Positions 38,252 to 57,072 of a stretch of 64,000 nucleotides of DNA are shown one piece after another (the stretch's first letter is position 1; every line of letters starts with the position of its first letter). A model generated the notes under the pieces. The model was given only the letters and a program-made list of their open reading frames with translations, did no database searches and had not been told where the DNA came from. Source of the stretch: Bacteroidales bacterium. Its GTDB lineage: Bacteria; Bacteroidota; Bacteroidia; Bacteroidales; Bacteroidaceae. Position numbers and translations under genes: made by a program. The DNA is taken from assembly GCA_015060865.1 (NCBI GenBank), contig SUXS01000004.1, positions 1-64,000 of the forward strand, written 5' to 3'.

Positions 38252-39247
38252 TTAAGGTACCTCTACCCTATTAAGAATCATGCTGATAATCTCTTCTGTT
38301 GTCAGGTTGCTTGCCTCGGCTTCGTAAGAGAGACCGATACGATGGCGCAGCACATCGTGAGCCACGGCACGCACATCCTCGGGAATCACGTAGCCACGAC
38401 GCTTGAGGAAAGCATATGAGCGGGCCGCCAATGCCAAGCTGATAGAGGCACGAGGCGAACCACCGAATGAGATCATCTCCTTCAGCTCCTTCAGCCCATA
38501 CTTCTCCGGATAGCGGGTAGCGAACACGATGTCGGCGATATAACGTTCAATCTTTTCATCAATGTAAACCTCCTTCACCACCTCACGAGCCTTGATTATC
38601 TCATCGGCATGCATGATAGGACGAACTTCGTACTTCTCACCATTGATATTCTGGCGGATGATGCGCATCTCCTCCTCCAGCTTCGGATAGTCGATAACCA
38701 CCTTAAGCATGAAACGGTCAACCTGTGCTTCGGGCAACGGATAGGTACCCTCCTGCTCGATGGGGTTCTGTGTTGCCAATACGAGGAAAGGCTCGGGCAG
38801 ACGGAAGGTCTCTTTGCTCAGTGTCACCTGACGCTCCTGCATAGCTTCGAGCAAAGCACTCTGCACCTTGGCCGGAGCACGGTTGATTTCATCAGCCAAT
38901 ACAAAGTTAGCGAAGATGGGGCCCTTCTTGGAGATGAAGGTCTCATCCTTCTGACTATAGATCATGGTACCCACCACGTCGGCAGGCAGCAAGTCGGGAG
39001 TAAACTGTATACGGCTATACTGTGCATCGATGAGCGAAGCCAGTGTCTTGATGGCCAATGTCTTGGCCAAGCCCGGCACACCTTCGAGCAACACGTGACC
39101 ATCAGAGAGCAATCCGATGAGCAGTGACTCCACCAAATGTTTCTGACCAACAATCACTTGGTCCATACCAGCCATCAGGTTGGTAACAAAGGCACTATGC
39201 CTTTCAATCTTTTCGTTTAGTTCACGGATATCGATTCTTCCACTCAT
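38252..39247 (-). CDS. MoxR-family AAA ATPase
   Basis: HVLLEGVPGLAKTLAIKTLA; LADEINRAPAKVQSALLEAMQERQVT; ATQNPIEQEGTYPLPEAQVDRFM. Confidence 0.96.
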   Translation of the reverse strand: MSGRIDIRELNEKIERHSAFVTNLMAGMDQVIVGQKHLVESLLIGLLSDGHVLLEGVPGLAKTLAIKTLASLIDAQYSRIQFTPDLLPADVVGTMIYSQKDETFISKKGPIFANFVLADEINRAPAKVQSALLEAMQERQVTLSKETFRLPEPFLVLATQNPIEQEGTYPLPEAQVDRFMLKVVIDYPKLEEEMRIIRQNINGEKYEVRPIMHADEIIKAREVVKEVYIDEKIERYIADIVFATRYPEKYGLKELKEMISFGGSPRASISLALAARSYAFLKRRGYVIPEDVRAVAHDVLRHRIGLSYEAEASNLTTEEIISMILNRVEVP

Positions 39248-39406
39248 AACTTATGTATTTTATTTTTTACTTAATATTCCTTACTGTATATTCGAAGATA
39301 ATCATTATATCATTTTTACCATTTACATAACTAAAATCAGCGCCAAAATTACCTCTTATTCCTATATAATATATCTAATATTTATTAAAATATCTTGTAC
39401 TGCCAT

Positions 39407-40750
39407 TTATTTTGTTTTACGAACCAACTTGGGTATTTCTATTTTCTTGCCTATACCGACCTTATTAAAGTCATCAACATGATTATATTTCACAATATAG
39501 GGCCACAATCGCTTATCTCCATAATATTTCTGAGCCAGACGGATTATGGTTTCCCCATTGCCCAATGTATGCGTAGTGAGTACACCATCATACACATATT
39601 CCGTTGTATCAGCTATAGTTATATCTTTAATATCCTTAGCCAACAGTGATTCAGACAACACTATTTGTTGCACAACAGAAGTTGGCTTTGTTGGCAATGC
39701 ACTCACATTCTTATCTGTTTTCTTCGCATTATCCGATTCGGTTTCAGGTTTATTTTTAACTGGTTCAGAAGGAGTTACTCCTTTCGAAGATATTTTTTCT
39801 GTCGAAGACTCCACCTTTGTATTCCACTCAGCCTCCAATTCTTTACCCAAATTTGGCTTTACAGTTATTTCATTCTCGTATTCCTTGCTTAGTTGTTTGC
39901 TATAATCATTGACTACGGCATCCTTACTTATAGAACCGAGAATATGTATACCAATAATTATCAACACCAACAATACAGAAAGCAAGCACCCGAAGTTACT
40001 ACCATTATGTTCATTTTCACTTCGATGATGGTGCGATTCTGAATATGCTTTATCCATATCCATTTCTTCTGGATATTCAGCCATATTCTCATCATTTTCA
40101 ATAGCATTTTCCTGTTCTACTGATTCATTCGCAGTATTCTGCTCGACAACAACAACTGATTCATCGGCAGTTTTTTGCCCACTCAGAATATCTTTATCCC
40201 GTTCTGCCTCTTTTTCATCCAGCAGGCACTCATCTTTCTGTTGAGATTGTTTTACAGATTCTTCTTCCGATATTTCTTCTACGGAAGGCATCATCACAGG
40301 CACACTTACATCCTCCAATGCAATCGCCTGTATCACCTCAGTCTTAGTTTGCAGAGACCGTTCTTCCCTCCCTGAAACCTCATATGAGTCAATACCACTT
40401 TCTACTGTCAACTCTTCATCTATAGGATAGTCATCACTAAGTTCAGCAGGTTCAAAATGAGCAAACGGACGATTTACAAACTCTTTGACACTACTATCAG
40501 GAGTAAAGGCCACCTTTCTATAACCCTTTATGGTAATTCGCGCACCCGTATTGACATCTACACTACCCCTATTGCTAACATCTACCAGTTTAAATGTTCC
40601 GAATCCTTTTATTTTAACAATGCCATCATTTACCAGTCCCTTCTCTATGGTCTTAAAAAAAGCATGTAGAAAAGAATCTGACAAAGATTGGGAGATGCCA
40701 TTTCTTTTTGCCAACTCCTCGATAATATTGCTCAGTGATATTTTACTCAT
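39407..40750 (-). CDS. HU-domain/TM/LysM fusion protein
   Basis: N-terminal HU-like (IVKIKGFGTFKLVDVSNRGSVDVNTGARITIKGYRKVAFTPDSSVKEFVN), TM (FGCLLSVLLVLIIIGIHILGSI), C-terminal LysM (THTLGNGETIIRLAQKYYGDKRLWPYIVKYN). Confidence 0.88.
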   Translation of the reverse strand: MSKISLSNIIEELAKRNGISQSLSDSFLHAFFKTIEKGLVNDGIVKIKGFGTFKLVDVSNRGSVDVNTGARITIKGYRKVAFTPDSSVKEFVNRPFAHFEPAELSDDYPIDEELTVESGIDSYEVSGREERSLQTKTEVIQAIALEDVSVPVMMPSVEEISEEESVKQSQQKDECLLDEKEAERDKDILSGQKTADESVVVVEQNTANESVEQENAIENDENMAEYPEEMDMDKAYSESHHHRSENEHNGSNFGCLLSVLLVLIIIGIHILGSISKDAVVNDYSKQLSKEYENEITVKPNLGKELEAEWNTKVESSTEKISSKGVTPSEPVKNKPETESDNAKKTDKNVSALPTKPTSVVQQIVLSESLLAKDIKDITIADTTEYVYDGVLTTHTLGNGETIIRLAQKYYGDKRLWPYIVKYNHVDDFNKVGIGKKIEIPKLVRKTK

Positions 40751-40763
40751 ATTAAAAAAAGGA

Positions 40764-41042
40764 CTACTCTTCGTTAATCTTATCTTTCAAGACATTACTC
40801 TGTTTAAAACCTAAAACTAATTTAGGGGGAATCAGATAACGTTTTCCAGTGACAGGATTGACGGAAATACGTTCCATTTTCTTTTTTACCTCAAAGTTGC
40901 CAAACCCCGTGACTATAATAGCATCATCTTGCTCAAAATGTTCTTCAAGCAACTGAATGGTATCAGTAATCAATTGGGTCGTCACACCAACCGATTGGTT
41001 AGTCTGTTTAGACAACTCATTGATAAATTCCTTATTATTCAT
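40764..41042 (-). CDS. HU-family DNA-binding protein
   Basis: 92 aa; DAIIVTGFGNFEVKKKMERISVNPVTGKRYLIPPKLVLGFKQSNVLKDKI. Confidence 0.92.
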   Translation of the reverse strand: MNNKEFINELSKQTNQSVGVTTQLITDTIQLLEEHFEQDDAIIVTGFGNFEVKKKMERISVNPVTGKRYLIPPKLVLGFKQSNVLKDKINEE

Positions 41043-41049
41043 TCTTGTA

Positions 41050-56412: not shown

Positions 56413-56447
56413 CAACATTCAACATTCAGCATTCATCATTCAAAGAT
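56413..56447. repeat. Heptamer array CAACATT CAACATT CAGCATT CATCATT CAAAGAT
   Basis: Period 7, directly abutting the left hairpin. Confidence 0.7.
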
Positions 56448-57072
56448 TCCCCTTCACATAAAACCGTACGTTCTTTGAGCCCATGGCACGTAGCTTGCCT
56501 GAGCGCACCAGCTCCTTGAGCTTCTTCGTGGCGGTATAGCGCGAGCATTCACATACCGACTCAAACTCGCGGCGCTGCATATACTCGTGCTCATCGAGGT
56601 ACTTTGCCAAGCGGCGCTCTATCACCTCATCGGTCAGCCGCTTGTTGGGATTGGGGCCTCCGCTCACGATATCGGCACCGCGCATGGCCTGCTTCATCTC
56701 CGCGCAGGGAGTGAAGAGGATGTTCTTCACACGGATATCGTTCTTCGTCACGCGATCTTCCAGTTTCTTGCGTCCACAGGTGAGCGACAGGCTGAAGGTA
56801 CCAATGTGGTCTATCTCCACGCGGTTGCCATCGAGCAGTTCATCACACACGCACTTGCCGAGGGCCTGCAACACGGCCGCTATGTCTGACTCGGTCACGC
56901 TACACGCGAAGTTGATATACTCTGCCAGCTCCTTCGTGGTGGTGAGCTTGCTGTTCACTACGGTCACCGCCATCTGCGGATTCTTCTCTGTGGCGGTTCC
57001 CGTGAGGTCATTTTGCCTACGCAGCTGGTAGGCAATAGTGCCTGATTTCTTGGTTGTTGTCTTTTTTGTCAT
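56440..57072 (-). CDS. HU-like DNA-binding protein with C-terminal winged-helix-like extension
   Basis: 210 aa; ELLDGNRVEIDHIGTFSLSLTCGRKK (HU beta-arm-like), C-terminal EVIERRLAKYLDEHEYMQRREFESVCECSRYTATKKLKELVRSGKL. Confidence 0.8.
   Translation of the reverse strand: MTKKTTTKKSGTIAYQLRRQNDLTGTATEKNPQMAVTVVNSKLTTTKELAEYINFACSVTESDIAAVLQALGKCVCDELLDGNRVEIDHIGTFSLSLTCGRKKLEDRVTKNDIRVKNILFTPCAEMKQAMRGADIVSGGPNPNKRLTDEVIERRLAKYLDEHEYMQRREFESVCECSRYTATKKLKELVRSGKLRAMGSKNVRFYVKGNL

Follow-up and report, generated by a model that had tools for sequence, protein, structure and literature searches.

A two-gene HU system with a membrane-anchored, LysM-bearing subunit as a candidate tether between nucleoid and cell wall in Bacteroidota

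A gene pair in the genome of a Bacteroidales bacterium encodes a short HU protein and a membrane protein that combines an HU domain with a predicted periplasmic LysM domain. On balance, we consider it probable, if modestly so, that the two pair up as an HU heterodimer, which is anchored to peptidoglycan and tethers the nucleoid to the wall, and in which the soluble subunit holds the DNA. We infer heterodimer formation, the binding of DNA and peptidoglycan and the cellular role from sequence. To our knowledge, essentially nothing is known about mechanical coupling between nucleoid and envelope in the Bacteroidota, which predominate among Gram-negative bacteria in the human gut. If the proposal is true, a protein pair would physically link DNA to peptidoglycan in organisms that include Bacteroides and Phocaeicola type strains, and the long-standing debate over a DNA-wall connection in bacteria would be reduced to a two-gene test. 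Besides, it would reveal an HU dimer in which gripping and anchoring fall to different subunits.

Results

Domain architecture and topology of the HU-LysM protein

The window, i.e. the whole analysed stretch of 64,000 nucleotides, contains a minus-strand gene for a 447-aa protein at 39407..40750, which is defined by its open reading frame, domain matches and an AlphaFold2 model. An earlier note made from the sequence alone had read this protein as an HU-like domain at the N-terminus followed by an acidic linker, a single transmembrane helix and a periplasmic-type LysM domain, and this order holds. The predicted cytoplasmic HU domain (aa 1-95, 40466..40750) matches PF00216 over aa 7-93 (Pfam, E 3e-17), is modelled with a pLDDT of about 95 or more over most residues and retrieves HU/IHF chains in Foldseek (E about 1e-7). 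According to the alignment and a tally of arms, its beta-arm (about aa 58-76, 40523..40579, RGSVDVNTGARI) carries no intercalating proline. The following cytoplasmic linker (aa 96-252, 39995..40465), assigned from composition and AlphaFold2, is strongly acidic, with 30% D+E and 7% K+R over about aa 101-240, and is predicted to be disordered (pLDDT mostly <50). The sole strong hydrophobic stretch, the predicted transmembrane helix (aa 253-271, 39938..39994), has a mean Kyte-Doolittle value of 2.85, with 1.36 for the runner-up, and the AlphaFold2 helix extends to residue 288. A predicted periplasmic linker (aa 272-384, 39599..39937), placed by charge bias, leads to the LysM domain (aa 385-444, 39419..39598). 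In the whole model, confident HU, transmembrane helix core and LysM regions are separated by disordered stretches; since this run on 77 sequences gave a mean pLDDT of 69.5 and a pTM of 0.33, the relative placement of the domains is undefined.

In the 447-aa sequence alone the LysM match is sub-threshold (12.8 bits vs the Pfam cut-off of 20.9; E 0.12). The C-terminal family profile finds solved LysM structures with E-values of 1e-14 to 1e-9, 15 of 30 relatives match the Pfam LysM family PF01476 (best 8e-6), and AlphaFold2 predicts a beta-alpha-alpha-beta fold at aa 385-444 with a pLDDT of about 91-97. Together, these three lines secure the predicted LysM assignment. A chance ORF or a mis-called LysM is ruled out by the 153-member family together with profile and model, and a role as defence protein was discarded, as PADLOC gave no match.

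All 153 distinct relatives, pooled from all searches, carry both HU and LysM, the latter recognised by profile, and 151 of them have a single strong transmembrane segment. The residues beside the membrane segment comprise 484 K+R on the N-terminal side vs 219 on the C-terminal side, and the charge count predicts N-in for 120 proteins, N-out for 10 and a tie for 21. This bias suggests that HU lies inside and LysM in the periplasm, and it argues against both domains being on one side of the membrane. The transmembrane topology on which the earlier note had built its idea of a tether thus agrees with the family-wide charge pattern.

Genomic context and spread of the family

On the minus strand, the genes follow the order ftsY (42442..43410), a rimO-like radical-SAM/TRAM gene (41050..42402), the short HU gene (40764..41042), the HU-LysM gene and a MoxR-DUF58-Bat cluster that opens with a MoxR AAA ATPase gene (38252..39247). 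The gaps measure just 7 bp between rimO and the short HU gene and 13 bp between the latter and the HU-LysM gene downstream of it, so that these three genes likely share one transcript, and 159 bp separate the HU-LysM stop from the start of the MoxR gene. In a scan of 38900-44000, promoter-like sites were not above shuffled sequence, terminator-like sites were slightly above the shuffles (6 vs 3.5), and from rimO to the HU-LysM stop the coding strand had no terminator-like site. Among 80 compared loci, some of whose missing neighbours are due to contig ends, rimO lies upstream in 80, ftsY in 77, and moxR follows downstream in 49.

The family comprises at least 569 relatives in GTDB species genomes, and the matches listed include Bacteroides, Phocaeicola, Prevotella, Segatella, Alloprevotella and other Bacteroidales. 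Within this class, full-length proteins occurred only in Bacteroidales among the matches listed, the other genomes giving plain HU, and about 29 of 199 sampled Bacteroidales genomes had strong HU-LysM matches. The identical architecture is present in some 40 of about 50 genomes of a family of another class (family f47), where other genes, in several loci one for an aconitase, take the place of rimO and moxR. In one Prevotella MAG (L106:6001-6318) the long gene ends after HU, with neither transmembrane segment nor LysM before moxR, so that the gene is either naturally truncated or wrongly assembled.

The short HU and its proposed pairing with the membrane HU

The 92-aa product of the adjoining gene, which the earlier note had put forward as a possible dimer partner, is a clear HU protein (PF00216, E 9.5e-20) with the arm VNPVTGKR and proline at position 63, and it proved to be a constant companion of the HU-LysM protein. 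It is encoded directly upstream in 79 of the 80 loci and, in a second sample, in every one of 56 loci, 27 of which are from family f47; a profile search found a short HU upstream in 148 of 153 cases. In a tree of 81 HU domains, in which few columns leave the inner forks uncertain, the membrane HUs of the two classes group in one clade (support 99/97), and so do their short HUs in a clade of their own (100/98). These separate two-class clades, and the short HU being kept despite changed neighbours, indicate that the pair is old and was inherited or moved together.

The two HU domains are encoded by separate genes in the window and are joined in a single chain only in four ORFs of one genus (g14, the genus of genome G031), which read short HU-long HU-TM-LysM (L214, identical to L201; L216; L218; L232) and in which the second HU arm is shortened or lost. 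We identified this genus as Phocaeicola, as one of its loci (L222) is identical over the compared stretch to L069, which comes from the type strain of P. coprophilus. A similar match in order is seen in the HU-HU-TM-SPOR proteins of Bacteroidota: their HU1 is closer to the short HU (E 6e-6 to 2e-5 vs 8e-4 to 6e-3 for the long HU) and their HU2 to the long HU (2e-6 to 3e-5 vs 3e-4 to 1.6e-3), a preference that is consistent in all six group comparisons and comes from seven sequences. Natural fusions and matching order are suggestive as Rosetta-stone arguments for the predicted heterodimer. It finds a third support in the loss of membrane HU arms vs the kept arms of the short HUs.

HU arms and charge

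The arm-tip proline (Pro63) of the short HU is invariant in 27 of 27 aligned members. The membrane HU arm reads V-D-V-N-T-G or similar in Bacteroidales, without proline, and N-P-Q-T in family f47, with the proline kept. In Phocaeicola, the membrane HU arm is deleted in 18 of 29 proteins, with 7 to 20 of 27 residues gone between the GTFK and FxP motifs, and several of the remaining ones have degenerate arms. All arm-less proteins retain the transmembrane segment and LysM, and since the loss is also seen in the type-strain locus L069, faulty assembly of a single MAG does not explain it. The free short HUs of the genus keep the N-P arm tip in 9 of 11 checked cases, the two without it being L226 and L242. 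As the Bacteroidales membrane HU has no intercalating proline and its arm is usually lost in one genus, it is probably the short HU that does most of the DNA gripping. Family f47 (L119-L144) differs from the remaining HU groups studied here in its short HU arms (YNPHYEQYM and similar, lacking a T-G turn), and one of its short HUs (G121) gives a weak PF18174 match. The mean net charge of the membrane HUs is about 0, and the window copies carry +5 (membrane HU) and -1 (short HU).

Discussion

A possible chromosome-to-wall tether

In the proposed mechanism, each of the two genes would supply one half of an HU-type heterodimer. The soluble short HU would contribute a full beta-arm, including the DNA-kinking proline. 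The long HU would complete the dimer body and be kept beneath the inner membrane by its transmembrane helix, which follows the long, acidic and flexible linker. Its LysM domain would reach through the periplasm and bind peptidoglycan, so that the complex would tie chromosomal DNA to the cell wall with little sequence specificity. The about 150 disordered acidic residues may keep the HU head off the phosphate headgroups and free to search the nucleoid periphery. Such a complex would likely serve to position the nucleoid or to hold it close to the envelope while the cell grows and its chromosome segregates. The arm data can be read as a division of labour, with the short subunit gripping DNA and the membrane subunit providing dimerisation and anchorage. 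The broader version of the proposal, a dedicated chromosome-wall tether as old as the phylum, consisting of a soluble DNA-gripping HU and a membrane- and peptidoglycan-anchored HU with a dispensable arm, is plausible, and we place it somewhat short of probable.

Several observations call for caution. The arm loss in Phocaeicola could reflect a loss of DNA binding in this genus, where 2 of 11 short HU arms lack N-P as well. A LysM domain is no proof of wall binding, because Kbp, a close match of the LysM family profile, is a cytoplasmic potassium-binding protein. Besides, the weakly charged HU domains of the pair count against a DNA tether. The same low charge would suit a different function, in which the HU fold serves protein-protein contacts, as suggested for CCDC81-type HUs, and the pair acts as a scaffold that joins some cytosolic protein to the envelope. 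Of the membrane HUs, 22 of 30 weakly resemble HU-CCDC81_bac_2, as do 12 of 27 short HUs, which points in this direction, and so does the loss of the membrane HU arm in Phocaeicola. We nevertheless regard a scaffold as unlikely; against it stand the DNA-arm motif of the short HU with its invariant proline, the NPQT arms of the membrane HUs in family f47 and the match of all members to PF00216.

It is still less likely that the membrane protein acts as a regulator in the manner of a one-component system, in which LysM would sense the state of the wall and the HU pair would alter local DNA structure or transcription. The transmembrane topology fits such a regulator, as does the envelope-related MoxR-Bat cluster that adjoins so many of the loci (49 of 80), but the pair contains no sequence-specific DNA-binding domain, it persists in the other class where the MoxR-Bat neighbourhood is lost, and its long disordered linkers are better suited to tethering than to signalling. 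Least probable in our estimate is a wall or division protein whose contact with DNA would be relevant at the septum alone, as a second copy of the HU-SPOR function. The domain order is the same as in HU-HU-TM-SPOR and both proteins co-occur in one genome; yet SPOR is an established reader of septal glycan and LysM is not, and most Bacteroidales with HU-LysM keep HU-SPOR too, so that the two are not simply interchangeable. A flexible connection running from DNA across the inner membrane to peptidoglycan is in our view the most parsimonious account.

Comparison with known systems

The closest counterparts are the HU-HU-TM-SPOR proteins of Bacteroidota (HU-CCDC81_bac_1/2), which likewise combine two HUs, one transmembrane segment and a peptidoglycan-binding domain in identical order. 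Burroughs et al. in 2017 reportedly predicted a role in chromosome partition for them. They differ from the window pair in carrying SPOR in place of LysM and both HUs in one chain instead of two genes, and the window HUs are assigned to PF00216 and score below the cut-offs of PF18174 and PF18175. The preferences of HU1 and HU2 are suggestive of HU-HU-TM-SPOR being the short HU/membrane HU arrangement already fused. The host genome encodes such a protein as well, a 397-aa open frame with PF18174 and SPOR on the same contig, 84 kb beyond the window (G000:C15:147658-148761; L112, L115), which is a second candidate DNA-to-wall protein. As most Bacteroidales also encode an HU-SPOR-type protein (PF18174 in 180 of 199 genomes), HU-LysM is not the sole candidate of its kind in this order. 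A simple replacement of HU-SPOR by HU-LysM was rejected within Bacteroidales, where both usually coexist. Outside this order, HU-LysM occurs in family f47 with no PF18174 protein that is clearly recognisable, and in several further families of the class PF18174 is present without a full-length HU-LysM.

HubP/FimV also has a periplasmic LysM, one transmembrane segment and a long acidic cytoplasmic region. Its LysM is N-terminal, whereas that of the window protein is C-terminal, and HubP contains a TPR/FimV domain but lacks HU, whereas Pfam finds only HU families and LysM in the window pair. The LysM of FimV binds peptidoglycan (PMC12918733), and HubP anchors oriC1 at the pole via ParA1 (PMC9140986); in the HU-LysM system the DNA contact would be direct. 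By analogy, HU-LysM would work like HubP while being unrelated to the HubP family.

With HU and IHF (PF00216), the best solved relatives, the pair shares the fold, the predicted dimer body and, where not deleted, the beta-arms; it is set apart by the membrane anchor, the proposed asymmetric partner and the missing arm proline in the Bacteroidales membrane subunit. HU proteins are numerous in the host genome, with 18 PF00216 hits in total, and the window itself contains at 56440-57072 (minus strand) a 210-aa HU-HIG protein of an expanded Bacteroidota HU family (PF18291, E 4e-27). A text search of open-licence papers found no published description of HU-LysM or of a two-gene HU heterodimer. The component families are known and the HU-TM-SPOR idea was reportedly predicted earlier; the two-gene form with LysM is a variant of that idea.
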